From Caryophanales bacterium (GTDB taxonomy: Bacteria > Bacillota > Bacilli > CAJFEE01), in contig JAQSYP010000002.1 in assembly GCA_029256085.1 (NCBI GenBank), positions 390,426 through 454,425 of the forward strand: a stretch of DNA of 64,000 nt, read 5' to 3'. Both the position numbers and the translations under genes were made by a program. This document shows, in pieces, positions 1 through 43,052 of the stretch (positions are counted from its first letter, which is position 1; every line of letters begins with the position of its first letter). The notes below the pieces were generated by a model that was not told the origin of the DNA, did no database searches, and worked only from the letters and a program-made list of their open reading frames with translations.

Positions 1-1638
1 TCTAAAATAGTAAGTTGTAAGTGGTGATAATCCACTTTCCACTCTATAATTTGTAAAAGTAGTTACGCCTACTGGACTATAAGATGTACCGTCTGTACTC
101 ATATAAATTACATATTTTGATACATCAATAGTTGGAGATGCATCCCATATTAAATCTAATGTTAATGGCGTTACTTTGCTTATTGAACCGTCAATTGGTG
201 GTTGTGGTACAGCCACTTCACCATTTTTTTTAGGGACTAAAATCGAAACATTTGAGGTCTGAGTTGAAACTAATCCTCTATCATCAATCGCCTCTACCTT
301 GTACTGGTATGTCACGTCATTTACACTTTGTGGAACACTAGCGTCTAAAAAACTATTACTTACAGTAGTCCCTATTAGAACATTGTTCCTATATATTCTA
401 TATCCGGCTAGATTAACGTCACTAGATGCTGTCCAAGACATTTGAACTGTATCATTGTTTGCTCCTAAAGAAAGTGTTGGAACGCCAGGAACAGGTGGTG
501 CTGCATTTGTTGAATTCAATGTTACTTGTAAATTATCTACATTTAATTCTGACCAGTCTGACCCTCGGCTAGAGGTTGAGAGTGATGCTCTAATTCTTAA
601 GTGATACGTTCCTGCTGTATTTGTAAGATTTGCAGATGCATTTACATATCCACTAGTACGGTTCCCTGTGTCATTCGTATGAACTGTGCTCCAAGTGCTT
701 GATGATGTTGATTTATAATCTATCCAGAAATCGACGTTTTCTCCTTCACCACTTCGATTATCAGCATTGTACCAATTCTTGCTATAACTAAATGAAACTA
801 CAGCACTATTTCCACCCGCCTCAGACGGAGAAATTGTAAACGCGTTAGTAGTATTTAAAACCGCTTCTGCAGATCTTGTTATTCTATCTCCCGCAACATA
901 AAACCTAGCAGTACTTCCTAGTGTTAATATTGTGGGGTTCGATCCGCCTGCAGTCCATTGACCAGGAAAATTTTCTGTAAGTTTAACAGTGTTTTGAGTT
1001 GACGGTAGTGCAGCTAATGTTGTTGTTGACGCATTCGTATAAAATCCCGAAACATTTCCGCTTGTATCTACAGCTTTGATATTATAAGTATAAGCGGTGC
1101 TAGAAACTAAGCCATTTAAATCTCTATACGAATTTGTACTCGAAACTCCGACCTTTACAGAGTTTCTATATATTTCATAAAACTTAACATCTGTTGAAGA
1201 CGCTGAATTCCAAGATAAATCTACAAAATTCGGTCCTGGTACTGTTGAAATTGTTAAATTTGTTGGTAAGGTTGGTGCTGTCAGATCTTTAGTGTAAATC
1301 GAATAAGCCTGACTATAGTTACTTGACCCACCTTCAACTGAAACAACCTCGTATTGATATAATGTTTGTTCATTTATCGTATTATCGGTGTAAGTTGTAG
1401 TTGTAGCATTGTTAATTACACCGATTTTTTCAATTTTATCCTTTGATGTTCTGAAAATTTGATATTCCGAAGCACCTGGTACTTCTGTCCAGTTTATTGT
1501 AAGACTATTACCTGCTTGAGTAATGCTAGTAATAGAGGTACCAGCGCTATATACTTTATTTACTAAAGGAATTATAAGTAATGAAATTAGTAATATATTT
1601 AAGGTTAACTTGCTTGTTTTATTTATGTGTTTAGTCAT
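1..1638 (-). CDS. FN3-repeat secreted protein, N-terminal part (runs off window)
   Basis: The first 546 codons are visible; the C-terminus lies beyond position 1. The ATG at 1638 follows AAGGAG at good spacing. The product starts with a signal peptide (about residues 1-33) and continues with fibronectin type III repeats and a lectin-like beta-sandwich in the middle. It aligns along its length with the neighbouring ten-heme protein (same ITSITQ start of the first FN3, same IYRTSK/IYRNS strands, same beta-sandwich), so the two are tandem paralogues. No CXXCH lies in the visible part, but in the paralogue all hemes are C-terminal, so a heme tail may follow outside the window. Inferred role: surface or extracellular adhesion/electron-transfer protein. 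Confident of FN3 and secretion; heme content unknown. Confidence 0.85.
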   Translation of the reverse strand, partial: MTKHINKTSKLTLNILLISLLIIPLVNKVYSAGTSITSITQAGNSLTINWTEVPGASEYQIFRTSKDKIEKIGVINNATTTTYTDNTINEQTLYQYEVVSVEGGSSNYSQAYSIYTKDLTAPTLPTNLTISTVPGPNFVDLSWNSASSTDVKFYEIYRNSVKVGVSSTNSYRDLNGLVSSTAYTYNIKAVDTSGNVSGFYTNASTTTLAALPSTQNTVKLTENFPGQWTAGGSNPTILTLGSTARFYVAGDRITRSAEAVLNTTNAFTISPSEAGGNSAVVSFSYSKNWYNADNRSGEGENVDFWIDYKSTSSSTWSTVHTNDTGNRTSGYVNASANLTNTAGTYHLRIRASLSTSSRGSDWSELNVDNLQVTLNSTNAAPPVPGVPTLSLGANNDTVQMSWTASSDVNLAGYRIYRNNVLIGTTVSNSFLDASVPQSVNDVTYQYKVEAIDDRGLVSTQTSNVSILVPKKNGEVAVPQPPIDGSISKVTPLTLDLIWDASPTIDVSKYVIYMSTDGTSYSPVGVTTFTNYRVESGLSPLTTYYFR

Positions 1639-1860: not shown

Positions 1861-4800
1861 TTATTTATAAAGTAGTCCGTTATTATTTGAGTCTCTATAT
1901 TGAAGTAAATTTAAAGACCTTCTATCAGATAGTATTTTTGAGGACGTTTCCCAATTCGTGTGCAAACTTCTCTTGATTTGTTCATCTGTAGGAGACGTAA
2001 TCGGTCTTAAGTTTGCTACTGGTTGATCACCATGACAACTTGGATTACAAGTTGCCGTATTTTCTGAGCGGTTATATGTACCAGGATTTGTAACAGGAAA
2101 ACCAATTTTATGGTTTAGATTACCATTATTCTCTGAATCTTTAGCCCCATGTACCCTGTGACATCTCTTACACGTTGCCGTTGGCGTTTTAGTAAAGTGA
2201 TAACTATGCATACTTTTAGTTTCAGAATTTACCGTAATTGTTGGACCTGTAGTAACGGAAGTTAAATTACCTTTACTATGACAATCATAGCAAATCGCTG
2301 CTGCAACATCAGTGTTTGAAGACGATTGTCCAACTGCATAATTTAATCTTAAATAATTAGGATTTTCAGAACCATGCGTGTTATGACATACTTGACAATC
2401 AAACTGTGAGTGTCCACTTCTCTCATTTACTTCTTTACCATCATAATCATTAAATGCTGTACCGTAACTACCCCAATCAGAATAAGTATAGTCAATTGCA
2501 TTTTCATGGCATTGGTAACAAAATTCTTTCCCATTATTAGTAATTGTTGCTGTCGAAGAAGTTGTATTCTCAAATGATATATTTCCTCTTAATAGTGGCT
2601 TAATATCAGAGGCATGTTTTTCATGACAAATTGAGCATTTAATATTTGTTGGAGATGAATCCTTGTGCTCAGATCCCTCTATATAATGAGAAGATTTATA
2701 GTGATCCATCTTACTTGAATTGTGCCCCTTATTGTTTTTTGGGAAATTAGTTTCGTGATCACCAATATAATCTACCGTTTTATTAAATGTTCCATCATCT
2801 AAATATCCATATGAATATGTTGGACTTCCTTCTCGACCATGACAACTCCAACAAAATTTATTGCCAGAACCAGAGGCCTCAGGTTTCACAGTATAGATAT
2901 CAGACGCAATATCCTTAACTCCCTTGTTAAAGCTCCATAATAATTTTGCTTCTGACGTTAAAGATAACCCAGTATCTAAATCCATTCCTCGATTATGCGG
3001 CTCATGACAGGAAACACAAGACATTGTAAATTTATTACCTTGTTCATCTGTCTCATTAATTGTCTCTGATAAAACAGGGTGATGACTTGTCTTTTCAGCA
3101 GGATTTCCAAAGTCACCTTTAACATTATAGATACTACCAGTTCCGTCATGACACTGAATACATAAATCAAGTATCTTATCTTGCGTTAGTAAGTTAGTAC
3201 TTTTTCCTTCATGTCCGCTATGGCAATTGTTACACATTCCAGTTTCATCAGCAAAGCTTCCATGTGGTTTATTATATAGTGCTTCTCCGGTTGTAAAAGA
3301 CCATTTAAACTCTTCTATTAATCCCATTTCAGCCATGTTTTTAGCTGACGTAGTTATAGTTACTTCATACTCTGTATTTGCATCCAAGTTGACTGTTGGA
3401 TTAAGAATAAATGCTGTTTGATTTGTCGAATACGTTGCAGCCAATTTTACCGAAGTTCCTTTTTGTGTGATGAAAAAAGAATCAGAGTTAATAGTTGTAA
3501 CATTCATTCTATCTGTAAATTTTGCTGTAATATTCGTTGCCCTTCCGACTTCAATCGATTGATTAGATGGCTTAAAAAATGCAACCTCTGGCGGTGAAGT
3601 ATCTACTAAAGTTTTCACATTCACAACTTGATGTGGAACCTCAGACTTATTTCCTGATGTATCAATTGCAGTTATTCTGAATTTGTAATTTGTGTTTTGT
3701 AATAACTCCTTAATAGATACGGAATTTTTCGGATGAGCGATAGTATTGACAAGATGCCAGGTACCACTACCATTAATTTCAGCTTCTACTTCATACCTTT
3801 CAACACCCTCATTATCAGTAGATAATTTCCAAGCTAAGTCTACAGAGGAAGACGTTATATTTGTTGCTTTAAAATCAGTTGGCTTAGTCGGACTTGTAGA
3901 ATCAGCTTCCGAAAAAGACCCGCTGAAAATTTGCGTCGCACCTGAGAACTCGCCATCTTTATCAACAGCAATTACTCTAAAATCATAAGGTGCAGGATAT
4001 GAATCATCTTTATTAAATTTAAAGTTCGTAAAAGTTGTTACTCCAATAACGCTAAATTTTGTTCCATCGTTTTTAAAGATTATATATTTTTGAATGTCAG
4101 GTGAAGGCGACGCTTCCCAAGTTAAATTCATGCTTATTTTGGTTGGTTTGTCGACAAGACCACCCCCCGGTGCTTGTGGTGGCATTACATCATCCTCATA
4201 ACTAGGAACAGTGATAGGAATCCCAACTGTCTGTGCTGTTAAACCTCTGTCATCAATTGCCTCAATTTTATATGTATACTCAGCATCCGAATCTTTAAGT
4301 TCAAAACTAGAATCTGTAAAACTATTATTGACTGTACTTGCGATTACAGTATTATCTCTATAAATCCTATATCCTATCAAATTAATATCAGATGATGCTG
4401 TCCATGATAAATTTAAATATTTTTTAGTTGCTCCAAGAGATATTTCAGGATTACCCGGAACAGATGGTGCAAAGTTGTTAACATATACTTTTAAATTATC
4501 AACTTCAAGTTCAGCCCAGTTACCAGACGTTTCGTTACTAGTCTTTACAGACATAGTAAATCTTAACTGGTATCTACCCGATGATAAATTAATATCATCT
4601 GAAAACTGAACATCGTTTGTAGTTGCTGTATTACTAATTGTAGCCATAGTTGTCCACTCACTTGAACCTATAGCCTTATACTCGATTCCAAGATTATATG
4701 CTTGTCCATTCGAATTATTATTATTTTTATTTCCCCAGTTAAAAGAGTAGTCAAAGTTTATTTTAACGTTATTACTTGCATTAGTTTCATTTTCTAGAAT

Positions 4801-5595
4801 TTCGAATGCATAAGCACTATCTAATTCTAATATCGCATTTTCAGTAATATTTTGCCCCTGGGCTGTTAGAATAGAGGGCTTTCCAACAACTAACTTAGAA
4901 CTGTTTGAAGAGAATCCTGTTGGGAATACACCATACTTAGTTACTGTTTGGTCACCAACTATCGAAATTGTTGAAACATTTACATTTGTATATGATTCTG
5001 ACACATTATTATAATAATCAACTGCTTTGACAGTATAAACATACGAACTTCCCATAGATACACCGTTTGAATCACGATATGATGTAGTTGTGCTTACTCC
5101 AACCTTTATTCCATCTCTATAAATTTCATAAACTCTTACGTCATTTGATAATGATGATACCCATGATAAATCAACGTAATTAGAACCTGGTTTGACTTTT
5201 ATATTTTTATTTGTTGGAAGTACTGGAGCAACATTATCTGATGTATAAAATGCTGTTGCAGGACTATAGTAGCTAACTCCATCTTTTATTGTAACAACCT
5301 CATACTGATATAATTTCAAATTTTCAATGGTTGTATCAGTGAAACTTGTATCTGCAGTTGATCCGACACGCTCTATACTTTCTTTTGTAGTTCTATAAAT
5401 TTCATAACCCGTTGCACCACTGACACTAGACCACTGAATTTCTACTCCAGAGGCCGTTTGTGTAATACTACTTATAGTTGTACTTTCACCTTGCACTTTA
5501 TTTATGTATGGAATAACTAATGAAGTCATTATTAATAAAACTATAAAAATATTTATTAATTTATAATTTATTAATTTATAATTTATTGATTTCAT
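1861..5595 (-). CDS. Secreted FN3/Ig-like decaheme c-type cytochrome
   Basis: 1244 residues. Signal peptide about 1-36; FN3 about 40-118 and 122-212; lectin-like beta-sandwich about 213-375; FN3 about 378-465, 475-565 and 570-665; SbsA/Big_5-type Ig domain about 668-772; then a cytochrome region about 785-1190. That region holds nine CXXCH (CNNCH, CIQCH, CVSCH, CWSCH, CSICH, CYQCH, CQVCH, CYDCH, CKRCH) and one CX3CH (CNPSCH). No LPXTG, SLH or C-terminal membrane helix is seen, so it is probably released or bound non-covalently to the wall or polysaccharide. It likely carries electrons extracellularly while the FN3/Ig stalk provides reach or adhesion (inference). It has its own terminator and a 165-base upstream gap, so it is probably transcribed alone. 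The N-terminus contains a small in-frame duplication (INYKL twice). Confidence 0.9.
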   Translation of the reverse strand: MKSINYKLINYKLINIFIVLLIMTSLVIPYINKVQGESTTISSITQTASGVEIQWSSVSGATGYEIYRTTKESIERVGSTADTSFTDTTIENLKLYQYEVVTIKDGVSYYSPATAFYTSDNVAPVLPTNKNIKVKPGSNYVDLSWVSSLSNDVRVYEIYRDGIKVGVSTTTSYRDSNGVSMGSSYVYTVKAVDYYNNVSESYTNVNVSTISIVGDQTVTKYGVFPTGFSSNSSKLVVGKPSILTAQGQNITENAILELDSAYAFEILENETNASNNVKINFDYSFNWGNKNNNNSNGQAYNLGIEYKAIGSSEWTTMATISNTATTNDVQFSDDINLSSGRYQLRFTMSVKTSNETSGNWAELEVDNLKVYVNNFAPSVPGNPEISLGATKKYLNLSWTASSDINLIGYRIYRDNTVIASTVNNSFTDSSFELKDSDAEYTYKIEAIDDRGLTAQTVGIPITVPSYEDDVMPPQAPGGGLVDKPTKISMNLTWEASPSPDIQKYIIFKNDGTKFSVIGVTTFTNFKFNKDDSYPAPYDFRVIAVDKDGEFSGATQIFSGSFSEADSTSPTKPTDFKATNITSSSVDLAWKLSTDNEGVERYEVEAEINGSGTWHLVNTIAHPKNSVSIKELLQNTNYKFRITAIDTSGNKSEVPHQVVNVKTLVDTSPPEVAFFKPSNQSIEVGRATNITAKFTDRMNVTTINSDSFFITQKGTSVKLAATYSTNQTAFILNPTVNLDANTEYEVTITTSAKNMAEMGLIEEFKWSFTTGEALYNKPHGSFADETGMCNNCHSGHEGKSTNLLTQDKILDLCIQCHDGTGSIYNVKGDFGNPAEKTSHHPVLSETINETDEQGNKFTMSCVSCHEPHNRGMDLDTGLSLTSEAKLLWSFNKGVKDIASDIYTVKPEASGSGNKFCWSCHGREGSPTYSYGYLDDGTFNKTVDYIGDHETNFPKNNKGHNSSKMDHYKSSHYIEGSEHKDSSPTNIKCSICHEKHASDIKPLLRGNISFENTTSSTATITNNGKEFCYQCHENAIDYTYSDWGSYGTAFNDYDGKEVNERSGHSQFDCQVCHNTHGSENPNYLRLNYAVGQSSSNTDVAAAICYDCHSKGNLTSVTTGPTITVNSETKSMHSYHFTKTPTATCKRCHRVHGAKDSENNGNLNHKIGFPVTNPGTYNRSENTATCNPSCHGDQPVANLRPITSPTDEQIKRSLHTNWETSSKILSDRRSLNLLQYRDSNNNGLLYK

Positions 5596-5735: not shown

Positions 5736-5771
5736 ACAAAAAAAAGACCAGTATAAACTCCATACTAGTCT
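5736..5771 (-). terminator. Terminator of first cytochrome operon
   Basis: Stem 5745-5754/5762-5771 with a long U tract in minus-strand RNA. The hairpin overlaps the stop codon of the FN3 protein at 5765. Confidence 0.9.
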
Positions 5772-6973
5772 ATGTCACTATTTTCTTCTAATCTACCAGT
5801 CTCACTTTTTACTTTTGGTAGTTCTTCTGCTTCTTCTGTCATTTCAATTGGTTCTATTTTCTTTTCTTTCTTTTCAATCTTCTTGATAACAACTACGTCC
5901 TCTTTAAACGTTAGAGGTAGTTTTTCATATGTTATCTTATTTAAATCACTACCAGTAGTAATCGAAATAACGTTACTAAATTGTGATTCATTGCGACTTA
6001 AGTCTAGCGTTGTAATCTTAAATTCATACGTTTGCTCAGGCCCTAATCCATCAGCAATGAAATAGTTTTCGTCAGTAAGTTCAACTGATTCAAACTCTTC
6101 TTGACCAGTCCTCATATACACTTTATATCTAAATAAATCTGAAACATTCTCCACAGGTGTCCATGCAATGTGAACTTGATTTGTTGCAGCTTCTTTTATA
6201 AATAATTGCGATGGAATCGGTGGTGCCTCAGTGTCGTAAAGGTTTGATAGAACAGTTACCTTTTCAGATTCAATTGTATTACTATCAACTGCAGTTACCG
6301 AATACGTGTATTGTACATTAGGCTCTGCCTGGTTATCTTCATATACGATAGTAGTATCATAATTAGGCACTTCAGAAACAAGTACATCGTCACGATAGAC
6401 TTGATAATATATTGCATCTTTAACCTGATTCCATTGAATTCCAACTATATATGCGTTATCTCTAGGTAAAGTTTTAAGGCCACTTGGTGGTACTAGTGGA
6501 TGTTGAGCTTCCTCATCTTGAGTTATCAACGTTTCCTCAAGTAGATTCCCTTCATCATCTATTGCTCTGAAAACATAATTCGCATTAGTAATTTCTGTAT
6601 TCTGATCAATATACGAGTAAGATTCCTTCTCATCAACAACTGGAAACTCTATTAGCATTGCACCATTTTTATATATAATATAGTTATCGGCATTATCTAA
6701 GTGTTGCCAAGTAAACTTTATCTCTTTTTCATTAATGAATTCTGTTTTTAATTCAACCTTAGAATCGGTAGGTGTTTCTATTTCAACTTCAGGTTTCTCT
6801 TCAACATCATTTATTTCAATATCTAAATCAGGCCCATCTAGATTAATGTCTTGTCCATCATACTTCTTGTTGATTACTTCTGCGAATGTCATTGTAACAT
6901 TAGTAGTAATAGACAATACGGAAAAACATATAACTAAACCTGTCATTGCTAGCTTTCTAGTTTTACGTTTCAA
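5765..6973 (-). CDS. Secreted protein with three FN3 domains
   Basis: About 402 residues from a TTG at 6973. GGGTGA lies at proper distance and this start gives a compact signal peptide (KRKTRKLAMTG then a hydrophobic core, AFA-like end). The longer frame from ATG 7003 has no ribosome binding site and would overlap the upstream gene by 29 bases. Three FN3 repeats follow an acidic linker. The C-terminal tail is rich in Lys/Glu and ends without a wall-sorting signal (an LPKVKSETG stretch is not LPXTG and lacks a hydrophobic tail). There are no heme motifs. It is the last gene of the TPR-NHL-cytochrome-NHL operon, one base from the preceding stop, so probably a structural partner of the cytochromes (inference). 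Confidence 0.8.
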   Translation of the reverse strand: MKRKTRKLAMTGLVICFSVLSITTNVTMTFAEVINKKYDGQDINLDGPDLDIEINDVEEKPEVEIETPTDSKVELKTEFINEKEIKFTWQHLDNADNYIIYKNGAMLIEFPVVDEKESYSYIDQNTEITNANYVFRAIDDEGNLLEETLITQDEEAQHPLVPPSGLKTLPRDNAYIVGIQWNQVKDAIYYQVYRDDVLVSEVPNYDTTIVYEDNQAEPNVQYTYSVTAVDSNTIESEKVTVLSNLYDTEAPPIPSQLFIKEAATNQVHIAWTPVENVSDLFRYKVYMRTGQEEFESVELTDENYFIADGLGPEQTYEFKITTLDLSRNESQFSNVISITTGSDLNKITYEKLPLTFKEDVVVIKKIEKKEKKIEPIEMTEEAEELPKVKSETGRLEENSDID

Positions 6974-6974
6974 A

Positions 6975-7862
6975 TTACTCACCCTCTTCCATTTTAAATG
7001 CAAGAATACGGTTATTACCTCTATCTGTAATATAAATTTGATTTCCTTCTACTATTATATCATTTGGGTACTTATATTCTCTACCCTGCAATATTGTCTG
7101 AGACTGCTTTCCATCGATTGAGATTTTGTAGATTTTATGAACTAAAGAGTCTGCTAAATATATACTATCATCATCAACTGATATCCCTTTGGGAAGTCCC
7201 GCCTGTTTTAACGGAATGGAGTACATAAAATTCCCTTCAGTAGTAAAAACTTGTATCCTTTTATTTTGAGAGTCTGAAACAACTAATCTTTGACCATTTG
7301 GTGTTATTGCAAGTCCATTTGCAAAGTTTAATTGTCCTTCTCCACTGCCTTGAGTTCCAAATGACTTCTCAAGCTGGCCGTCTTTGTATATATGAATTTG
7401 ATGTGTAGAAACGTCACTAATAAAAAGTCGTCCTTTATCATCACTAACTATTGCTGCTGGCATCAAACCATCTTTACTTATTTCTGACTTAAAAGTTCCG
7501 TCTTCATCAAAAATTTGAACTCTACTATTCCTAAAATCTGCAATATATATACTTCCCGAGCCATCATAATCTATATCAACAGGATAGTTGAATTTTCCAG
7601 GGCTTGTTCCAGAACCACCAATTTTTTTGATGAAATCGCCACTTCTATCAGTAATAATTACTTCATTATTACCAGAATTAGTAATATATAAATTGCTTCC
7701 ATTTGTTGTGATAGCTATCGGTGCATCTAATTTAAAATCTTTATTACTCTCAATTGTTAACTGCTCTGGAGTAGACTTTTCAAATAATAAATATACTAGG
7801 CCACCTAATATAACTGTAACGATAATTGCCACAACAACTAATATATTTTTTTTGTTTTTCAC
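6975..7862 (-). CDS. Membrane-anchored NHL-repeat beta-propeller protein
   Basis: About 295 residues. The GTG at 7862 is chosen because AGGTGAT precedes it at 4-5 bases; the frame also allows GTG 7871, which lacks a site. One N-terminal membrane helix (about 8-27) is followed by roughly six NHL blades, recognisable as repeating P.D/I....G..Y[IV][AT]D..N.R[IV]..F units (for example IYIADFRNSRVQIF, IYITDRGNNRILAF). NHL propellers are usually protein- or ligand-docking scaffolds; no catalytic residues are apparent. It lies between the six-heme cytochrome and the FN3 protein in one operon, so its expected site is the outer face of the membrane, assisting assembly or anchoring of the secreted cytochromes (inference). 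It is a paralogue of the propellers at 9405 and 41331. Confidence 0.85.
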   Translation of the reverse strand: MKNKKNILVVVAIIVTVILGGLVYLLFEKSTPEQLTIESNKDFKLDAPIAITTNGSNLYITNSGNNEVIITDRSGDFIKKIGGSGTSPGKFNYPVDIDYDGSGSIYIADFRNSRVQIFDEDGTFKSEISKDGLMPAAIVSDDKGRLFISDVSTHQIHIYKDGQLEKSFGTQGSGEGQLNFANGLAITPNGQRLVVSDSQNKRIQVFTTEGNFMYSIPLKQAGLPKGISVDDDSIYLADSLVHKIYKISIDGKQSQTILQGREYKYPNDIIVEGNQIYITDRGNNRILAFKMEEGE

Positions 7863-7874
7863 ATTTATCACCTA

Positions 7875-9389
7875 TTATTTCTTATGACAGTCCTGACAAA
7901 CGCCCATACTATTTTTTCGTTTAAGCTTAGACTCACCTGTGTAGTAGTCATGAGACTTTGTACCGTGTGAAAAATGACACGTTAGACACATAATTTTTGG
8001 AGCATTTATTCCGATTTGAGATGTTGTATCAAGAGGTTCTTGCTTATTAATTGCTGGTGGATTCTTAGTTGTATCTGGTGAAACAGATCCATTATCCTTA
8101 AAAGTATATTCCCTTTTTATAGGATCATAAGTGAAACTTGCAGTAGCAGTTGTTGTACTTCCTATTAAACCAAATTGAGTTCTTATTGGTTCAGAAGCAC
8201 TTGGACCTGCTCTATATACCTTATAGCTTAACGCGTTACTAATACTTGGATAAACTAAATTCACTGTATTCGTAGCAGTTGCTCCAGTAACTGAAATACC
8301 TTTTATATATCCTTGGTGAGATTCACCTAACATATTTACTCCCGTAATAATATACCAATACTTGTTCGCTCCTGTAACGTTAAGAGTCCCACCCGTTGTC
8401 GAAAATGATGATTTTGGTAATGGATACACTCCAGACGGCACACCTTGTGTTGGTAATGTCGTAAATAAAGAGTTTGGATACGTATAAGATAGTGGCATTT
8501 CCTGAGGATCTGTTGTTGTAGTTCTAGATCCACCTGTTAATAGTGTTCCAACTGGGTGGCGATACTTTGTTGGATCATTCATATCAGTACCTTCATAATG
8601 ATAATAAACATAATCTTTATGACATGTTGAACAAAACTTATCGAATCCTCCACCGTATGAAACTACTTCAGCCTTAGTAAAACTGTTTTCTCGAATATCA
8701 GGCTGGTATAAGTTTGTTTTTGGATCTAGCTTACTCGCTACGAAAATACCATCTCTAGCATCAGCTAGCTTTTTGTTATGATTTCCAATTGTTACACCAT
8801 TTATTTCTGTAGCTAAGTTACGATAGTTCCCAGTACCATGAGGATTGTGGCAACTTGTACAAACTAACATTATTTGATCTTGTGTTCCACCTGGGGCTAT
8901 ATTATTATCCTCAATCATGTGAGTAGATGTGAATCCAGCACTAGTATTAAATCCTCCAGCTAGTGAATCAACAACAGTCCCTGCTGAAGAGTAATACAAC
9001 CCACCTTTAGAATCATACTTACTACCACGACCATCGTGACAGCTAAAACACAAATCTTTTCTTGTTGATTCGCGTAGAAGATTTGCTGATTTCCCCATAT
9101 GTGTAGAATGGCAATGCGCACAGGCATTAGTATTTTCCTTAAACGCAGCATGCGGATTTGATCTCTGGTCTAATATTCTCGTATTATTATGTTCAGGATT
9201 TGTATCAGGATCACTTGACCTAGGTGCTGTTTCTCCATCAATCAATAGAGGCGGCCCAGAAGGTGGATTCCATGTTGGTTCTGCAAAAGCTATATTATTA
9301 TATAGGTAAAAAGAGGTAGCAATAATTGTTGCTGTGCACAAGAATAATATTCTTAGATAGTTTTCTTTTAAAAGTTTCTTCATGTGCAT
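7875..9389 (-). CDS. Secreted hexaheme c-type cytochrome with beta-domain insert
   Basis: 504 residues from ATG 9389, preceded by GAGGAGGGG; the longer TTG start at 9404 would sit inside that site. Signal peptide about 1-37. Six CXXCH motifs: CAHCH, CFSCH, CTSCH, CSTCH, CLTCH, CQDCH. The first two form a paired module (HAAF...CAHCHSTH...LL...CFSCHDG) shared with the ten-heme and both seven-heme proteins. Between hemes 4 and 5 (about residues 325-435) lies a heme-free FN3-like beta domain (YKVYR, YTF strands). The protein ends four residues after the last CXXCH, with no anchor. Role: extracellular electron carrier next to two NHL propellers (inference). Identification as a cytochrome c is firm; partners and acceptor are not known. 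Confidence 0.9.
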   Translation of the reverse strand: MHMKKLLKENYLRILFLCTATIIATSFYLYNNIAFAEPTWNPPSGPPLLIDGETAPRSSDPDTNPEHNNTRILDQRSNPHAAFKENTNACAHCHSTHMGKSANLLRESTRKDLCFSCHDGRGSKYDSKGGLYYSSAGTVVDSLAGGFNTSAGFTSTHMIEDNNIAPGGTQDQIMLVCTSCHNPHGTGNYRNLATEINGVTIGNHNKKLADARDGIFVASKLDPKTNLYQPDIRENSFTKAEVVSYGGGFDKFCSTCHKDYVYYHYEGTDMNDPTKYRHPVGTLLTGGSRTTTTDPQEMPLSYTYPNSLFTTLPTQGVPSGVYPLPKSSFSTTGGTLNVTGANKYWYIITGVNMLGESHQGYIKGISVTGATATNTVNLVYPSISNALSYKVYRAGPSASEPIRTQFGLIGSTTTATASFTYDPIKREYTFKDNGSVSPDTTKNPPAINKQEPLDTTSQIGINAPKIMCLTCHFSHGTKSHDYYTGESKLKRKNSMGVCQDCHKK

Positions 9390-9404
9390 AGTTCCCCTCC
9401 TCAA

Positions 9405-10361
9405 TTAGTCGTTTACTTTATATATTACAATTCTACTATTGCCTTTATCTGCAACATACAAGTAGTTGTCTTTAATTTCTAACCCCTCTGGAATATAGAA
9501 TGATTCATTACTAGTTCCAACAACCCCAAGAGTAAAGTTTGCGCTTTCATATTGGTCAGCGATAATAATCTTATTACTAGTCGTGTCTGTTATATACATT
9601 AAGCCCTTATCGTCAGCGAAAATGCCCGATGGTGTGTTGATTTTTTTATCTGTTACAAGTATGTTTTTACCACTCTTATCGAATACTTGGATACGATTAT
9701 TGCCTGTATCAGTTACAAAAATATCACCTTTTTTATTAACGTGGATACCAAGTGGATACTGAAACTGTCCTCTTCCTTTACCTATCCCACCAAATCTAAG
9801 CTCTAAAAATCCATCTTTATTGAATCTTTTTACTGTTTGATCTGTTTTATCAATAATATATACATTATCTTTAGAATCGATAGTCATTGCTGTTGGAATA
9901 ATGCCAAACTTCTCATTATTCATTTTGTCTTTCGTATCAAAAAATCTAAGAAACTTCCCCTTCTTGTCATACACGGAAATTCTCATATTATTTAGTTCAG
10001 CTACAAATACTTCGTTCTGAGAATTTACCGCTACTCCTACAGGGTAGTCGAATTCATTTTTTTTATCACCAAATTCTCCAAACTTTCCAATGTATTCACC
10101 GTTGTTCTTAAAAATTTGTATTCTATGGTTATCCGAATCAGTTACGTAAACAGTACCATCATTAGAAACAGCTAGATCTATCGGATTCCGCATTTCATTG
10201 CCCTTTGGACCATATAATGCTAATTGGAATTCATATGCATTTCCGTTTCCAATACCAACTGGGTCATAGTCCTTGTAGAATAAGAACAATTGAACTCCTA
10301 TTCCAATAAAAAGTCCTGCTGTTAAACCTAGTATTATGCGTAAGAATAATTTTGTAGACAT
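9405..10361 (-). CDS. Membrane-anchored NHL-repeat beta-propeller protein
   Basis: 318 residues, ATG at 10361 with GAGGCGAG upstream. An N-terminal membrane helix (about 7-29) is followed by a six-bladed NHL propeller (VYVTDSDNHRIQIF, IFVTDTGNNRIQVF, LYVADKGNSRIVIY). It sits between the TPR protein (12-base gap) and the six-heme cytochrome (15-base gap), so the three are clearly co-transcribed. The same TPR-then-NHL order recurs at 42321/41331, which argues that the pair is a functional unit tied to multiheme cytochromes. Specific ligand unknown. Confidence 0.87.
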   Translation of the reverse strand: MSTKLFLRIILGLTAGLFIGIGVQLFLFYKDYDPVGIGNGNAYEFQLALYGPKGNEMRNPIDLAVSNDGTVYVTDSDNHRIQIFKNNGEYIGKFGEFGDKKNEFDYPVGVAVNSQNEVFVAELNNMRISVYDKKGKFLRFFDTKDKMNNEKFGIIPTAMTIDSKDNVYIIDKTDQTVKRFNKDGFLELRFGGIGKGRGQFQYPLGIHVNKKGDIFVTDTGNNRIQVFDKSGKNILVTDKKINTPSGIFADDKGLMYITDTTSNKIIIADQYESANFTLGVVGTSNESFYIPEGLEIKDNYLYVADKGNSRIVIYKVND

Positions 10362-10372
10362 GCTTCTCGCCT

Positions 10373-11050
10373 CTACTTTTCAGTGGCATTAAGGCGTTCT
10401 AATCCTTGTAATGCCTCTTTATAATCTGGGATGAACCTAAGTGCTTCCTTGTATTGTTGTATAGCTTGTTTAGGTTGATTATTTTTTTCATATGATAAAC
10501 CTAACTGATATATAATTGTTGCAGATGTAGGCTCAATTTTTAAACATTCCTCAAGATATTTTATAGACTTTAGGTAGAAACCCTCATCCATTGCTAACAT
10601 TGCTAATTCATAATTAGCGTATACATTTTGTTCATCGAGCTTTAGAATCTTTTGAAATTCTTCCTTCGCCATCTCGATTTCATTTTGATCCTTATAAACT
10701 AGTGCTAAAGCATATTTATAACTAATGTTCTCGGGTGCTAGTTTAACAGCCTTCTCAAATTGCCGTTCTGCTAGATTTAAATAAAAACGACTTTTACGCT
10801 CAACGGCAATGTCATGGTATGTTTTTCCAAGGTTTGCAATAGCTTCATAGTCATTTGGTGATTCTTGTACTTCATTTCTATATTGGCTTGCTAGATAGAA
10901 GTTATGATCCTTCTTTTCAAAATAAAAACGCTGCAACCCATATAATGCGAAAATAATAAAACCTATATATATAACAATTATTGGGTATGCAACCCGCTTG
11001 GAAATATATTCACGAATATTCTTTCGTTTTTGATCCTTTTCAGCATTCAT
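10373..11050 (-). CDS. TPR-repeat membrane protein
   Basis: 225 residues. One membrane helix near the N-terminus (about 21-43) is followed by at least four tetratricopeptide repeats (AIANLGKTYHDIA, YKYALALVYKDQ, ANYELAMLAMDEG, IIYQLGLSYEKN). The C-terminal DYKEALQGLERLN matches the end of the TPR protein at 42321 (LFKDAIEALERVE), so they are paralogues. First gene of the operon running down to 5765. The TPR domain would face outward, like the propellers it is encoded with, and probably helps organise or chaperone the cytochromes (inference). Confidence 0.87.
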   Translation of the reverse strand: MNAEKDQKRKNIREYISKRVAYPIIVIYIGFIIFALYGLQRFYFEKKDHNFYLASQYRNEVQESPNDYEAIANLGKTYHDIAVERKSRFYLNLAERQFEKAVKLAPENISYKYALALVYKDQNEIEMAKEEFQKILKLDEQNVYANYELAMLAMDEGFYLKSIKYLEECLKIEPTSATIIYQLGLSYEKNNQPKQAIQQYKEALRFIPDYKEALQGLERLNATEK

Positions 11051-11190: not shown

Positions 11191-11661
11191 TTACTCGTCA
11201 ATATTCACCGACAAGTTCTGCCTTAGATGGTAAATACAAGTAATACTTCTATTAAATTGACTGTCGAAACTTGAAAAACTAATTTCTATATCTATCTCTT
11301 TTAAGTTTCTAAAAGTGATGCGAGTAAAAGATTTTTTGACTTCTCTATATTTTAATACTTTATTTGTAAATATCCAAATTTCATCCTTTCGCAGATGACT
11401 ATTAATTGGAAATGCAAAGATATTTTTCATACAGCTAATAGTCAATGGAATCCGCTTTTTAAACCCCATCAAGTACTTTATTGCATCAATTCTACCTCTA
11501 AAAGTGGATCCGTATGTAATACACGACTCTTCTAGTAGCCTAATAGGCGAGATTTTTAACTTATTTTCACCATCATCTTTTATAACCCTACTACATATCT
11601 CACCATATTCATTGTAAAAAGGAATAATTGCACATACTTTCTCGTCGATTAAAAAACTCAT
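11191..11661 (-). CDS. comK: ComK-family competence transcription factor
   Basis: 156 residues, ATG 11661 with GGGGAG upstream. Family hallmarks: an N-terminal EYGEICSRVIKDD segment, ESCITYGSTFRGR (compare the CRFFGSSYAGR region of B. subtilis ComK), then IPLTISCMKNIFAFP and an IWIF strand. ComK binds minor-groove AT-boxes and activates DNA-uptake genes and its own promoter. This copy is shorter than the 192-residue B. subtilis protein, mainly at the C-terminus. It may therefore be a short Bacillaceae variant or a ComK-like paralogue with altered activation. It is divergent from a sigma-factor gene, and two AT-boxes lie in the shared upstream region. Confidence 0.85.
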   Translation of the reverse strand: MSFLIDEKVCAIIPFYNEYGEICSRVIKDDGENKLKISPIRLLEESCITYGSTFRGRIDAIKYLMGFKKRIPLTISCMKNIFAFPINSHLRKDEIWIFTNKVLKYREVKKSFTRITFRNLKEIDIEISFSSFDSQFNRSITCIYHLRQNLSVNIDE

Positions 11662-11745
11662 AATCTCCCCTACTTTCTAGTTTCTCTCTTTAAATTTACT
11701 AGAAAGTTTTACTTCATTATCAATTTTCAGCAATATAATTACGTG

Positions 11746-11780
11746 AAAATCGAATTTTCTATAATAGAAAATTAAATTTT
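11746..11780. promoter_or_regulatory. ComK K-box (two AT-boxes)
   Basis: Two exact AAAA-N5-TTTT AT-boxes, 11746-11758 and 11768-11780, lie nine bases apart (centres 22 bases, about two helical turns) between divergent comK and the sigma gene. This is close to the short-spacer ComK K-box arrangement. The first box is itself a perfect palindrome (GAAAAT CGA ATTTTC). Confidence 0.55.
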
Positions 11781-11788
11781 AAAACCAT

Positions 11789-11795
11789 TTCGACA
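11789..11795. promoter_or_regulatory. Spo0A-box-like motif between comK and sigma gene
   Basis: TTCGACA (TGTCGAA on the minus strand), nine bases past the second AT-box and about 77 bases before the sigma start. Confidence 0.35.
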
Positions 11796-11871
11796 AATTT
11801 TGCAATCCGTGATGAAAAGATGAACTCAAACAAAATCAGTAATATGAAACTACCATGGAATAATCGAAAGC

Positions 11872-12375
11872 ATGCTTTCAGAGGGAAGCATTACATTGCA
11901 GGACGAAAGTTTTGAAATGGTTGTTAATCAATATACTCCTATGATTCACCAGATAATTAATAAGTGTCGTATTTACAAAGATAGGGATATGTATTTTCAA
12001 GAAGGGTTAATTGCACTTTGGAATGCTTTTAATAATTTTAACGAAGAAAAAGGAGCGTTTTGCACTTATGCATATACAATAATCTATGGTCATATTCGAA
12101 ATGTTTTATCAAAAGAAAATCGCTTTTCTACTAGAAATATTACTTCATCAGAAGACGTTTTAAATTTATCTTCTAAAATAGATCGTAATTTTAATACTAC
12201 TGACATTCTAGCAGCATCTGAAGTAGTTCTTGGAAAATATGAATATGAACTTATATATAGAAGGTATTTTTTAAATGAACCCTTAACTGACGTCAGTAGT
12301 TTCCTTGGAGTTTCTCTGGCAAAAGCCAAGAAAGATATATTATGTGCTAAGAAAAAACTTAAAAAATTTTTATAA
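11872..12375 (+). CDS. Small sigma-70 family RNA polymerase sigma factor
   Basis: 167 residues. Region 2 is recognisable at about 15-85 (MYFQEGLIALWNAFNNF, then CTYAYTIIYGHIRN, the -10 recognition helix area). Region 4 with its helix-turn-helix is at about 120-165 (YELIYRRYF...LTDVSSFLGVSLAKAKKDILCAKKKL). There is no anti-sigma domain. Architecture resembles ECF or SigH/ComX-sized factors. The ATG at 11872 has a weak site; a TTG at 11896 with GAGGGA upstream is an alternative that would cost eight residues. It is followed by DUF1659, DUF2922 and YvrJ genes, a grouping recurrent in Bacillales. Divergent comK and the K-box suggest competence or stationary-phase control (inference). Confidence 0.85.
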   Translation: MLSEGSITLQDESFEMVVNQYTPMIHQIINKCRIYKDRDMYFQEGLIALWNAFNNFNEEKGAFCTYAYTIIYGHIRNVLSKENRFSTRNITSSEDVLNLSSKIDRNFNTTDILAASEVVLGKYEYELIYRRYFLNEPLTDVSSFLGVSLAKAKKDILCAKKKLKKFL

Positions 12376-35371: not shown

Positions 35372-35833
35372 CTAGTTTGTTTCAATTAACAAGCTCTCAA
35401 TTTGGGCTAGTAATGTTGGATCTTGGTTATTTGCCTTTGCACTTTCTAAGTAGCTCTTTGCCTTTTCCTTTTCACCATTCATAATTAGTATTTGGCCGAA
35501 CATTGTGCAAAACTGTGGTTCAATTGATAGAATCGGATTTAATTTTATAGCTTCGTCAAAGTACTTAACAGATGTTTCGTAATCATTTGTAATTCTGTAA
35601 ATAATCCCAATGTTTATCTTTATCATGTAGCTTTTTGGATATTTTTCTTCAAGTTTTTGTAATTCAATTAATGAATTCGTTGGATCTGTGCCAATTTTCG
35701 TTACTACAGAGTTATAACTGTTTTGATCGTTATTAAATTGTTTATTTTGGTAATACCCTAATGTTTTAATAGCAATTAACATTGTTATTACTAAGGAGAA
35801 AATAATTATAAAATATTTTGTCGACTTTTCCAT
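35372..35833 (-). CDS. Small TPR-repeat membrane protein
   Basis: About 153 residues from ATG 35833, which follows GGGGAG; ATG 35845 is a possible alternative. An N-terminal membrane helix (about 5-27) precedes at least two TPRs (IKINIGIIYRITNDYETSVKYFDEAIKLNP, then a second degenerate one). First gene of the polysaccharide operon, 14 bases before the Wzy-like polymerase. It probably interacts with the polymerase and affects chain length or complex formation (inference). Confidence 0.82.
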   Translation of the reverse strand: MEKSTKYFIIIFSLVITMLIAIKTLGYYQNKQFNNDQNSYNSVVTKIGTDPTNSLIELQKLEEKYPKSYMIKINIGIIYRITNDYETSVKYFDEAIKLNPILSIEPQFCTMFGQILIMNGEKEKAKSYLESAKANNQDPTLLAQIESLLIETN

Positions 35834-35933
35834 CTGTCTCCCCATTTCCCTTTTTAATTTAATTGTATAGTACATACTAGTTGTTTTCTAGACTAAATAA
35901 TTAATTTTTCTTGACGTACTTTATAAAACCCAC

Positions 35934-35990: not shown

Positions 35991-38288
35991 TTAAGGCTTT
36001 ACTGTTAATAAGTTTACAGTGTATAACTTACCAGCGATTGTGAAGTTGTAAGTTACAGCTGGGTTAGTACCGTTTACAACATAAGGAGTTGTTAATGATA
36101 CAACAGCTTGTTTAGTAGCAGCATCAAATGTTACTGTACCAACAACAGTTGTTCCATCAGCAGCGTTTACTACATTGCTAGTAACTTTATCACCAGAAGC
36201 TAATAATCCCCATGAGTTAAATTCCATAACTAACTTTTGAACAGTTACAGGACCACCTGAAGGATAAACATCTAACACACCAGTTTGTGGATAGAAGTCA
36301 TCGTACTTACCACTGTTAGCTGAAGTTCCAGTTAAAGTGTCCTTGTAAGTTGAGATATATACTAAGCTTGGTGTAGCAGCAGGCTTACCAAAGCCCCATC
36401 TGTTTCCAGCAGTCCAAGAAGCGTTAGCATCCCATGAACCGTATTTTAATCCAACTTGCTTAGTTGCATCATTTTGGTACTCATCGTTGTTTACTAATGA
36501 ACTTGCGTGAGAAGAAGTATGACAACCCCAACATACTGACATGTTAGTGTAACGCTTAATTGCAGAAGAAGGGTTGATATCATCTAAGTGTGCTAATGCT
36601 GCAGTTGGAGTTGAACCTCCAGCTACCATTGAAGCATAGTCAGCACCTTTTGAATCTTTGAATAATAATGCGTTAGCTCCGTGAGACATGTGACAACGAG
36701 CACAAGAATAGTTGTCAGAGTTTGTTGTATGACGGAACTTTCCGTTATTTAATGCACCATCAGCCATATCAGCTGGAGTTTGAGCTACAGTACCAGTGTG
36801 ACAAGAGTTACATGTCATAGAAGTACCAGCGTTGTTATTATAGTGACCAGACGGTGCACCAGAAGATGCTAAATAGTCAACGTGACAAGCAGCACAGAAT
36901 TGAGAGAACTTAACACCCATTCCTGATTTTGAACCACCAGCAGCCATAACGTCACCGTTAACGTCTAAGTTACCGTTAGTCATTGCCGCGTTAGAAGTTA
37001 CTAATAAAGGAATGTCTTTTACGTTCGGTAAATATGTTGCAACTTGTACTAAGTCTAAGTCAACTACAGATACACGTGGAATTCTCATTTGTACTACATC
37101 AGCTAATGGAGCACCACTAGCGTATGCTTTTGCATAGTTGTAGCTAACACCTGTTGTTCTTGGAGTTACACCTAGTGAACCAGCTTCTGGAGAGTTTACT
37201 ACTCCGTCAGCGTTTGTATCTAATGCCATTGTTACACCAGCTTTGAACATCATTTGGTGTTCAAAAGTGTAAGGGTATTCAGCAGAGTTTAACCAAGGAG
37301 TTGTATCCATAGTATAAGGGAATACTGGAGCTCCTTCATCGTCTGCAGCTTTGTAAGCAGCAATAATAATTGTTCCGTCAGTTGTTGCAGCATCAAATTT
37401 AGATGCAGCAGTTCCGAACGCTACGTGATCTGCCTTTGTAGCCTTTACTAGCTTATACTTTGTAGGAGCAGCAGTACCAGCAGCACCAGTAATATCAGCG
37501 ATAGTTTGTACTGGATAACCTAATGTTTGCTCTGTAGTAGAGATTGTTGGGTTGTTAATTAAACCAAATCCACGATCTTTAACGTCTACAGTACCCATTC
37601 CGTTTGGATTGTAATGTAATAAACGATCAGAGTAAGAACCGTGTGGTGCGTGACAGCTAGCACAACTGAACTCGTCGCCCCACGTACCCTTTTCTCCATT
37701 TGTTAATTCACTTTCAGCACCAGTGTAATAACCACCAGGAGCAGCTTTTACACTTAACGCTTTATGTGTATCTACGTTATGCATAGATGCATCTTGTACT
37801 GATCTATCGAAACTACCTGCGTTAGATGCAACTACATCAGCAGTTGTGATAGAAGGGAAATCTGGATCAATTGCAACTAGTTCAGCTGGAGCATTATGAG
37901 TATAAAGCTCACCAGTTTTTACGTTGTAGAAACCTAAAGATCCATCATGACATGATAAACATGTTGATTGTGTACTAGTTCCGAATAATAATTGCTTTGC
38001 GTTCGCTGTATGCGTCATATGACATGATGCACATGAGTTTGTATTTTCTTGGAAATCTGTATGAGTCTTTTGGCCTTTTAAACTCTTTACAAGAGTTCCC
38101 ATAGCACCAACTTGACCTGTTTCGTTAGATTGGTTTGCTTTGTTTTGGTAAGCTAATGCTGAGCCAGTGAAAGCACCGATTAGTAACGACGTTGTTACTA
38201 AAGTTTTCGCTAATAAACCTTTCATTCCTTTTTCCTCCCTAGAACCTTTTTCTGTTTTCTCTTTATATTTAAGTAACTCGTTAACCAT
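35991..38288 (-). CDS. Secreted heptaheme c-type cytochrome, paralogue 1
   Basis: 765 residues. Seven CXXCH motifs at about residues 86 (CASCH), 109 (CLSCH), 209 (CASCH), 466 (CAACH), 492 (CNSCH), 529 (CARCH) and 583 (CWGCH). A heme-free segment of about 250 residues separates hemes 3 and 4, and a beta-rich heme-free domain lies at about 620-765. Signal peptide with a long charged n-region. Two strong ribosome binding sites exist in the same frame: one for ATG 38288, another (AGGGAGG) for ATG 38225, which starts a compact signal peptide (MKGLLAKTLV). No wall anchor. It is about three-quarters identical by eye to the next gene. Likely an abundant extracellular electron carrier. Two Spo0A-type boxes lie upstream; it has its own terminator. 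Confidence 0.9.
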   Translation of the reverse strand: MVNELLKYKEKTEKGSREEKGMKGLLAKTLVTTSLLIGAFTGSALAYQNKANQSNETGQVGAMGTLVKSLKGQKTHTDFQENTNSCASCHMTHTANAKQLLFGTSTQSTCLSCHDGSLGFYNVKTGELYTHNAPAELVAIDPDFPSITTADVVASNAGSFDRSVQDASMHNVDTHKALSVKAAPGGYYTGAESELTNGEKGTWGDEFSCASCHAPHGSYSDRLLHYNPNGMGTVDVKDRGFGLINNPTISTTEQTLGYPVQTIADITGAAGTAAPTKYKLVKATKADHVAFGTAASKFDAATTDGTIIIAAYKAADDEGAPVFPYTMDTTPWLNSAEYPYTFEHQMMFKAGVTMALDTNADGVVNSPEAGSLGVTPRTTGVSYNYAKAYASGAPLADVVQMRIPRVSVVDLDLVQVATYLPNVKDIPLLVTSNAAMTNGNLDVNGDVMAAGGSKSGMGVKFSQFCAACHVDYLASSGAPSGHYNNNAGTSMTCNSCHTGTVAQTPADMADGALNNGKFRHTTNSDNYSCARCHMSHGANALLFKDSKGADYASMVAGGSTPTAALAHLDDINPSSAIKRYTNMSVCWGCHTSSHASSLVNNDEYQNDATKQVGLKYGSWDANASWTAGNRWGFGKPAATPSLVYISTYKDTLTGTSANSGKYDDFYPQTGVLDVYPSGGPVTVQKLVMEFNSWGLLASGDKVTSNVVNAADGTTVVGTVTFDAATKQAVVSLTTPYVVNGTNPAVTYNFTIAGKLYTVNLLTVKP

Positions 38289-41053: not shown

Positions 41054-41181
41054 ATTCCACCTCCTCACTCGGGAAATCTCAAATTATAGATAAACGTACA
41101 AGACGTTAATCCCAAAATAGTAAGGACTAGACAACTCTCTGCTAGTCTATCTACAGTATAGAATTATCAGTGCGCGAAATT

Positions 41182-41330: not shown

Positions 41331-42299
41331 TTAGCGGAATACTTGAATACGATTTAATGCAGTATCTGCAATGTAAACGAAGTTGTTATCGTCTACAAAC
41401 AGACCTCTTGGTAGTGTAATTTGATCTTGTTCTGAACCACGCTCAGCAAATTCAAATAGTTTCTTACCTTCACTATCAAATCCATATGCAGTTGAGTTTA
41501 TCATATCTACAACTAATATACGACCTCTACTATCTACTCCAATACCACGTGGCTGAACAAAAATCGAAGTACCTTTACCATCTTTGCTTCCAGACCCGTT
41601 AACAATCATTAATTGCTTTCCATTTTTGTCATACTTAATAATATTGCTATCAGATGAATTAGAAACGTATACATTACCTTCGTCATCAACAGCTACTCCG
41701 TTTGGAGCGTTTAATTTAGACTTACCTTTTTTATCAACACCATATTCTTTAACCAATTTATTTGTCTTTAAATCATATGCTACGACTTTACCAAGACCAA
41801 CATCAGCAACATAAATCTTGTTGTCCTTAATTCTTATATCAGTTGGAGCAGAGAATGCTTCATCAGTTAAATATAAACTCTTAAATTTACCTTTTTTGTC
41901 AAAAATTTTAACAGCGCCATGCTTTAAATCTGCTATATAAATATTACCGTTTTCGTCGCCATCGATACCATAAGGCATACCGAATTTATCAAACGCAGTT
42001 CCTGCTTCACCGAATGAACGAAGCATAGAGCCCCCTACATCAAATACTACAATACGTGCATTTTGTGTATCTGATACATAAATTTCTCCATCGATATAAG
42101 CCATATCGTACGGATTATCTAATCCTTCTGATTCAAAACCACCATAGATTGAATACATATGTTTTGGTGGAGTATCAAGTGGTGTTACCATATCTGGAAG
42201 GATTAATCCCTCTTTCTTAAAGAAATACATATATGAAAAGAATAGTGAAACGATTATAAAAATCGCAACCATGGATTGGTGGGTTCTCTTTTTATTCAT
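41331..42299 (-). CDS. Membrane-anchored NHL-repeat beta-propeller protein
   Basis: 322 residues. An N-terminal membrane helix (about 10-27) is followed by six NHL blades with the DTQNARIVVF, IYIADLKHGAVKIF, IYVADVGLGKVVAY and VYIADTALNRIQVF strand-turn pattern. Paralogue of the propellers at 6975 and 9405. Last gene of the operon decaheme-dodecaheme-TPR-NHL, 21 bases after the TPR gene. Expected outside the membrane; inferred to help assemble or dock the secreted heptaheme proteins. Confidence 0.88.
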   Translation of the reverse strand: MNKKRTHQSMVAIFIIVSLFFSYMYFFKKEGLILPDMVTPLDTPPKHMYSIYGGFESEGLDNPYDMAYIDGEIYVSDTQNARIVVFDVGGSMLRSFGEAGTAFDKFGMPYGIDGDENGNIYIADLKHGAVKIFDKKGKFKSLYLTDEAFSAPTDIRIKDNKIYVADVGLGKVVAYDLKTNKLVKEYGVDKKGKSKLNAPNGVAVDDEGNVYVSNSSDSNIIKYDKNGKQLMIVNGSGSKDGKGTSIFVQPRGIGVDSRGRILVVDMINSTAYGFDSEGKKLFEFAERGSEQDQITLPRGLFVDDNNFVYIADTALNRIQVFR

Positions 42300-42320: not shown

Positions 42321-43052
42321 CTACTTTAATTTCTTTTCCACTCGTTCAAGAGCTTCAATTGCATCTTTAAATAATGGATCGTACATTAAAGCCTCTTTAT
42401 ATACATCAGCTGCACCTTGATAATCTTCTCTTGCTTCAGCAATTTGACCAAGATTGTAAATTATTGTAGAGCTTCCTGGTTGAATATCATTTGCTTTACC
42501 TAATTGTTCAAGTGCTTTGTCATACATCTTCATTTCCTTATATGCCATACCTAAATACATAAAGCCCTGATAATCTTGAGGAGATATTTTAGTAGCTTTT
42601 AATAACGCTTCAGCTGCATCATCGTATTTCTTCGCATCCATATATGCAATACCTAAGTTTAGGTAAATGTTAAAATTATTTTTATCTATTTTTAGAGCAC
42701 GCTTGTAGTTATTAATTGCACTATCTACGTCACCAAGTTTTAAGTAAGTGAAACCTAGGTCAACTAGTACGTTTGCATCCTTTGGTTGCGCCTTTGCCTT
42801 TTGTTTATAGAAGTCCAATTGTTCTTCAAGTCTAATTTCTTCTGCTTTACCAGCAATATATTTCTCACCAAAATAATACCAACCTCCAGCTGAAACTGCG
42901 GCAGTTAAAATTATTAGAAAAGCCGCCAACCAAACTGGGTAGAACATGTTTGGATGCGTTTTTCTATTAGGTTTATTTTGCTTGTCATTCGCTTTTTCTA
43001 CTTTTGTATTTTCAGTAGATGTTGTGGGATTATTTTCTTTAATATTTTCCAT
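42321..43052 (-). CDS. TPR-repeat membrane protein
   Basis: 243 residues, ATG after AAAGGGAGA. A hydrophilic N-terminal tail (about 35 residues), one membrane helix (about 37-62), then four TPRs (VDLGFTYLKLGDVDSAINNYKRAL, IYLNLGIAYMDAKKYDDAAEALLKA and two more). Same architecture and C-terminal signature as the TPR protein at 10373. It lies between membrane cytochromes and the NHL propeller; a scaffold or assembly role in electron transfer is inferred from this repeated context. Confidence 0.88.
   Translation of the reverse strand: MENIKENNPTTSTENTKVEKANDKQNKPNRKTHPNMFYPVWLAAFLIILTAAVSAGGWYYFGEKYIAGKAEEIRLEEQLDFYKQKAKAQPKDANVLVDLGFTYLKLGDVDSAINNYKRALKIDKNNFNIYLNLGIAYMDAKKYDDAAEALLKATKISPQDYQGFMYLGMAYKEMKMYDKALEQLGKANDIQPGSSTIIYNLGQIAEAREDYQGAADVYKEALMYDPLFKDAIEALERVEKKLK

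Follow-up and report, generated by a model that had tools for sequence, protein, structure and literature searches.

TPR and NHL-repeat proteins encoded with OmcS-like cytochromes in Bacillota are candidates for building or anchoring cytochrome wires

Described cytochrome wires and the loci in this study

In the literature that we examined, no dedicated assembly factor is named for cytochrome wires. Here, we analyze two loci in a 64,000-nt stretch of DNA (hereafter, the window) from a Caryophanales bacterium of the phylum Bacillota (assembly GCA_029256085.1, contig JAQSYP010000002.1, positions 390,426 to 454,425 of the forward strand). In both, genes for a TPR protein and an NHL-repeat protein, neither of which contains a CXXCH heme motif, stand directly ahead of a gene for a multiheme cytochrome related to OmcS, the filament cytochrome of Geobacter.

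The closest described system is that of Thermincola ferriacetica, in which the hexaheme OmcS homolog CwcA (Tfer_0075) is described, in the passages available, as a possible wire through the Gram-positive wall, fed by the membrane multiheme quinol enzyme ImdcA (Tfer_0070) (PMC7911101). The likeness lies in a hexaheme OmcS homolog with a membrane multiheme feeder, and metagenome-assembled genomes of T. ferriacetica bear the cassette described below. However, NHL and TPR have 0 occurrences in that paper. Tfer_0075 may correspond to our hexaheme, although ImdcA is a decaheme whereas the corresponding gene here encodes 12 CXXCH motifs, and a search of the fetched loci for the N-terminal tags published for ImdcA and PdcA gave no match.

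In Dethiobacter alkaliphilus, NHL and TPR proteins occur in several multiheme clusters, and roles in secretion, orientation or assembly have been suggested for them (PMC10376724), in line with the assembly or docking role that the original prediction put forward. These clusters resemble ours in placing both repeat proteins among Firmicute multiheme genes; the passages available, however, contain no fixed gene order, statistics or link to OmcS, a name that appears 0 times in the main text. NHL genes also lie beside cytochrome genes in Desulfovibrio ferrophilus (PMC9769857) and the Uet cluster (PMC10734462), and next to an OmcE homolog in Geoalkalibacter (PMC12016550), as far as the passages available to us describe these loci. 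Such OmcE-type systems share with ours an NHL gene beside a tetraheme or OmcE homolog (PMC10734462, PMC12016550) and differ in having a tetraheme in place of the hexaheme; in their Bacillota examples, the module TPR is usually absent. Two papers on Gram-positive multihemes make no mention of NHL or TPR in the parts available (PMC7829351, PMC6085454).

The original prediction, made from the letters of the window, had pointed to NHL genes near filament-type cytochrome genes of Geobacter. This was not confirmed for Geobacter itself, in which GSU2505, the neighbor of omcS going by locus numbers, is given as a hypothetical protein only (PMC10599522), and it found a counterpart in the Geoalkalibacter gene pair. 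The in vivo conductivity of OmcS filaments is a matter of dispute (PMC11077965). NHL and TPR proteins near multihemes have thus been reported already, as has, separately, an OmcS-like wall cytochrome (CwcA); what is new is the type of cytochrome that the two repeat proteins accompany, namely OmcS-like and OmcE-like ones. We found no prior description of the fixed cassette or of this specificity in the literature, of which the filament part was only partly covered, and we make no claim of priority.

The cassette and its cytochrome partners

The genes named in the original prediction are real, with the coordinates that it gave, on the minus strand. At locus 1, the module TPR gene (10373-11050; N-terminal membrane helix and TPR array) is followed by module NHL protein A (9405-10361; membrane helix and NHL beta-propeller), a secreted OmcS-like hexaheme cytochrome (7875-9404) and a second module NHL protein, NHL-B (6975-7871), with gaps of 11 bp, 0 bp and 3 bp. 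At locus 2, also on the minus strand, a NapC/NrfH-type membrane cytochrome with 12 hemes (43080-44258), of the type usually preceding the module TPR, is followed by a module TPR gene (42321-43052), NHL-C (41331-42299) and an OmcS-like cytochrome with seven CXXCH, not six (38597-41068). These assignments rest on open reading frames (ORFs), Pfam matches, heme motifs and family profiles. The three NHL proteins score 137.9, 103.2 and 90 bits against Pfam NHL (PF01436; cut-off 20), and Pfam also confirms TPR, Paired_CXXCH_1 and NapC/NirT domains. The 12-heme cytochrome and a neighboring 9-heme cytochrome belong to the NapC/NirT family (PF03264; 68.7 and 75.8 bits for the two locus-2 cytochromes, cut-off 24.1), and for both quinol oxidation is a putative function predicted from sequence.

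The helper proteins were claimed to be paralogous between loci, and they are. NHL-A and NHL-C share 27% identity over 282 positions (E=1e-29), and the two TPR proteins share 28% (E=2e-16); scores between repeat proteins run inflated, and both pairs nevertheless fit module-specific profiles too.

The source genome (2.63 Mb in 17 contigs, with a listed completeness of 100%) has eight Pfam NHL matches, confined to three ORFs in the window, all adjoining multihemes. Its Paired_CXXCH_1 matches lie in the window, in the adjoining upstream part of that contig and in a single ORF of contig 3. With a profile built from the three window NHL proteins, 66 of 398 phylum genomes were matched at E<=1e-15, and we read 67 regions around NHL matches plus the window, along with 13 control regions taken at roughly even spacing from three module-bearing genomes. 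A multiheme gene lies within 3 kb of 73/76 short NHL ORFs (<=430 aa) and of 0/261 control ORFs, which rules out chance neighbors. The module TPR is directly upstream of 48 of the 76, and 48 of 49 module TPR genes in these regions have the NHL gene directly downstream. None of the 10 longer NHL ORFs (>430 aa) lies near a multiheme gene, ruling out that all NHL proteins are cytochrome-linked.

Because the first regions were chosen by NHL-match strength, we repeated the test from the TPR and cytochrome sides. Module TPR genes were found at 95 places in 30 of the 398 genomes, and the NHL gene is directly next at 90 (71 by listed coordinates and 19 on reading the regions). The remaining five comprise one place with an intervening ORF, one at a contig end and three without a following NHL gene (G281, G321 and G382), where the TPR matches are weaker. 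The median gaps are 22 bp between TPR and NHL (n=87) and 44 bp between NHL and cytochrome (n=107), with some loci counted twice. The usual order is NapC/NrfH-type 12-heme, TPR, NHL, OmcS-like hexaheme. It is seen in 18 of 19 named loci, in one of which the last gene is cut by a contig end; the nineteenth, from Treponema, has TPR proteins only, without NHL or multiheme genes. Carriers include T. ferriacetica metagenome-assembled genomes, Thermincola sp., Desulfosporosinus, Bacillus, Mesobacillus and Neobacillus, with one complete chromosome among the records. A tetraheme and a hexaheme used as queries against plasmids gave no match. These neighborhood statistics bear out the predicted enrichment of NHL and TPR genes beside multihemes as dedicated rather than chance neighbors.

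The predicted partners had been secreted cytochromes at large. Dedication to cytochromes stands; the partners, however, form a narrower group, the filament types that resemble OmcS or OmcE, and do not extend to secreted cytochromes as a whole. In the NHL- and TPR-centered regions, with repeats removed, an NHL gene lies directly 5′ on the same strand of 84/96 OmcS-like genes with 6-7 hemes, 7/47 OmcS-like genes with another heme number, 8/11 OmcE-like genes of any heme number, 1/112 NapC-type genes and 3/36 unclassified multihemes. Adjacency measured in this way is too favorable, and the fair figure is the cytochrome-centered one, for which 81 distinct genes were read from 113 OmcS-like places and 30 from 33 OmcE-like places, contig-edge genes being set aside. 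In that sample, the NHL gene directly precedes 46/56 OmcS-like genes with 6-7 hemes, 8/15 OmcE-like genes with 4-5 hemes and 5/10 with at least 8.

At the genome level, OmcS-like genes occur in 28 and the module TPR in 30 of the 398 genomes, with 27 holding both (Fisher 1.9e-37); NHL is present in 28/28 genomes with OmcS-like genes and in 8/8 with OmcE-like genes. NapC-type cytochromes occur in 100 of the 398 genomes. The 27 of these that also have OmcS-like genes all have the TPR (27/27) and the NHL (27/27), whereas among the 73 without OmcS-like genes, TPR is found in 1 and NHL in 10. The helpers therefore do not track multihemes in general, and the TPR count (1/73) rules out a general multiheme factor.

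The relation to OmcS is full length. A profile of 24 module hexahemes matches Geobacter OmcS (PDB 6ef8, 6nef), a protein of a Gram-negative host, at E=3.3e-20 and 75.8 bits (profile 101-434 of 463 to residues 8-406 of 407), and the second-best PDB match is at 6.8e-6. All six CXXCH motifs align one to one, with the hemes in register, and in the window hexaheme and 23 relatives the six CXXCH and six further His are invariant. The motif CxxCHxxH is present in 89/90 module hexahemes, with some loci counted twice. Among the six further His, the one after heme 1 (H102 in the window) is invariant in 24/24 and aligns with OmcS His16, which we take to be the ligand to a heme of the next subunit; for the module protein this is conservation and not a demonstration of ligation. 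OmcS is reported, in the passages available, to have one inter-subunit heme-ligating His (PMC7911101, PMC9473688). The module hexahemes may polymerize into filaments. Single-sequence PDB searches with two window cytochromes, including the hexaheme, found no nanowire relative, and the family profile alone matched. OmcS-like proteins with at least 12 hemes, not behind NHL genes, were observed in eight regions (L189, L190, L192, L194, L195, L197, L198 and L201) and are possible tandem or fused wire units. Beside modules in regions L107 and L176 are very large multihemes with up to 49 CXXCH per ORF.

Where a genome lacks OmcS-like genes, the NHL gene may be followed by a tetraheme gene instead. 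A profile of four such tetrahemes gave full-length matches to 7tfs (7.1e-41), whose PDB label is 'Cytochrome c' only and which we take to be OmcE, and to 9yuq (3.8e-37). The latter entry, perhaps another filament, comprises 16 chains labeled 'putative multiheme cytochrome c'. A short tetraheme type beside NHL (A9) was considered as OmcE-like and rejected, since it matched piecewise only (best E 1.4e-7), and it was kept out of the profile. OmcS and OmcE are reported, in the part of the source available, to have no sequence similarity to each other (PMC9473688); NHL proteins of a single kind thus accompany two dissimilar cytochromes of the filament type.

Both helpers were predicted to carry one N-terminal membrane helix, and a hydrophobic N-terminal helix is found in 84/85 TPR and 117/121 NHL proteins. 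The N side of the helix is more positive on average, clearly so for NHL (102/117), and this charge distribution suggests that the helpers would face outward. The structure model of NHL-C is a six-bladed propeller of 24 strands on a helix (predicted local distance difference test, pLDDT, 91.6), and its best PDB matches are NHL domains (6xg7, TM 0.76). Module TPR proteins share the motifs G..iGK.FFW after the helix and PGS..iiY.iG at the C-terminus.

Lastly, each module keeps its own matching TPR-NHL-cytochrome set. Across 59 modules from 22 genomes, the distance correlations are 0.76 for TPR-NHL, 0.60 for NHL-cytochrome and 0.78 for TPR-cytochrome. Shuffling partners within genomes gives means of 0.07-0.13, and 0/1000 shuffles reach any observed correlation.

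A working model and its rivals

We lean toward the view that the two window loci represent a single cassette, widespread in Bacillota and present here in two copies, whose products form an OmcS-type wire and connect it to the membrane, and we propose roles for its parts. The NapC/NrfH-type 12-heme protein would take electrons from quinol and hand them on to OmcS-like hexaheme subunits arranged in a chain that would span the thick wall, as proposed for Thermincola CwcA. The heme-free TPR and NHL proteins, each held by one N-terminal membrane helix and facing outward, would be synthesized immediately before the wire subunit, on which they would act. The TPR protein may hold or chaperone the chain while it is unfolded or freshly loaded with heme, and the NHL propeller may be a platform on which the folded subunit is received and from which the wire is seeded or anchored next to the quinol enzyme. 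Because they form a fixed gene set with a membrane cytochrome and an OmcS relative, TPR and NHL are good candidates for building or anchoring cytochrome wires. A beta-propeller and a TPR protein are paired as assembly factors in BamB/BamD and Ycf48/Pitt. The likeness is an analogy of working only, as the cassettes are not homologous and the substrates differ.

Several observations weigh against this proposal. Locus 1 has no 12-heme gene ahead of its TPR, the AlphaFold prediction for the hexaheme is too poor to use (pLDDT 39.8), and the positive bias on the N side of the helix is weak for TPR (58/84). In the cytochrome-centered count, 10/56 OmcS-like genes with 6-7 hemes and 7/15 OmcE-like genes with 4-5 hemes have no NHL gene directly before them, so an NHL gene beside the cytochrome gene is not strictly required. 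Some places (23/113 OmcS-like and 3/33 OmcE-like) fell outside the fetched regions or matched no ORF. OmcE-like loci are without the module TPR, save for one distant TPR match in G382. The NHL gene directly precedes just 2/22 OmcS-like genes with at least 8 hemes, compared to 46/56 of those with 6-7; such rarity would be expected if NHL joins separate subunits. Finally, the co-inheritance may arise from linkage alone, without the proteins touching.

The strongest competing explanation, which we nonetheless regard as unlikely, is that the pair are heme-attachment helpers: the TPR protein would be a cytochrome-specific equivalent of CcmI or NrfG that presents the apo-hexaheme to heme ligation, with NHL supporting that step. 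Both window TPR proteins fall just below the cut-off of the CcmH/CycH TPR family (PF23914; 39.5-39.6 compared to 42 bits), and the source genome has no ResB match and a System I Ccm cluster in which Pfam matches CcmE, CcmF and CcmH. The 125-aa ORF at the CcmI-like position of that cluster matches no Pfam family and contains no TPR; the cluster could therefore lack a TPR partner. Yet other multihemes manage without the TPR (the 1/73 above), TPR scores cross-react widely, the propeller has no obvious place in such a step, and NHL alone accompanies OmcE-like genes. The window TPR proteins also lie outside the NrfG family (24.6 bits to a model with a cut-off of 306). In the Ccm cluster (L188 6711-13995, G000:C15), CcmA, CcmB, CcmC and CcmG were recognized by both sequence and position, and the CcmC-like gene has a Cytochrom_C_asm match.

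It is less probable still that TPR and NHL are permanent non-redox subunits that clamp the NapC-type quinol enzyme to the wire, rather than assembly factors. Such a clamp would suit three membrane-anchored proteins encoded side by side, with each module keeping its own matching pair; it fits poorly with the usual absence of the TPR where the partner is OmcE-like and with a TPR-NHL-hexaheme set at locus 1 that has no 12-heme gene of its own. We give little credence to gene linkage alone, that is, a mobile or duplicated block with no direct functional contact between its products. Linkage could produce the co-inheritance, but NHL accompanies OmcS-like and OmcE-like genes that are unrelated in sequence, according to the passages available (PMC9473688), and yet in the same regions precedes 1/112 NapC-type neighbors. 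Binding of mineral particles by the NHL proteins, a role suggested in Geoalkalibacter (PMC12016550), is highly improbable because the helix ties NHL to the cytoplasmic membrane, which would lie under a thick wall in an ordinary monoderm organism.

Surroundings of the loci and significance

The span originally proposed for the feature, 5765-11050, holds the genes as given, but the operon continues beyond 5765, past the window start, to C14:382342 in the contig. Its transcription order is TPR, NHL-A, hexaheme, NHL-B, a fibronectin-III (FN3) protein, three large FN3/Big_5 cytochromes and a further hexaheme outside the window. The FN3 protein (5765-7003, minus strand) has no hemes, is probably secreted and overlaps the end of NHL-B. 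Each of the three large cytochromes has 9 CXXCH and one longer motif; the first lies at 1861-5595 (minus strand; the longer motif is CX(3-4)CH), and the 5′ part of the second (9+1 hemes) lies at 1-1638 (minus strand) and continues beyond the window to C14:388320. Directly upstream of the operon, at 11191-12375, lie two genes, one of the ComK family (PF06338, 120.8 bits) and one with sigma-70 region 2.

At locus 2, the 12-heme gene is preceded by the NapC/NrfH-type membrane cytochrome with 9 CXXCH (44309-45631, minus strand), and a second OmcS-like cytochrome with seven CXXCH lies at 35991-38288 (minus strand). A 167-aa TPR protein at 35372-35875 was rejected as a module TPR, as it falls below the module-TPR cut-offs; it borders polysaccharide genes. 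About 22 kb of polysaccharide-type genes lie between the two loci (13197-35357), including glycosyltransferases, MBOAT, and flippase-like, polymerase-like and initiating-transferase-like genes, named from ORF reading with MBOAT alone identified by Pfam. At 54366-54743 is a short-repeat gene of SPMGMGPMPTQV units with a spore-coat-like look, whose frame apparently slips near its end.

Returning to the wire-building cassette, we tentatively extend the proposal, at somewhat lower confidence than we would need to call it probable: the NHL propeller may be a general and dedicated biogenesis and anchoring factor common to OmcS and OmcE nanowires, with the TPR protein as the partner for the OmcS type, and together with the NapC-type enzyme the pair may form, in Bacillus, Neobacillus and Mesobacillus as well, the base from which wires cross the wall. 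The two non-heme genes of the cassette are named knock-out targets, and the cassette would serve as a marker for wire genes in thick-walled bacteria, ordinary Bacillaceae included.

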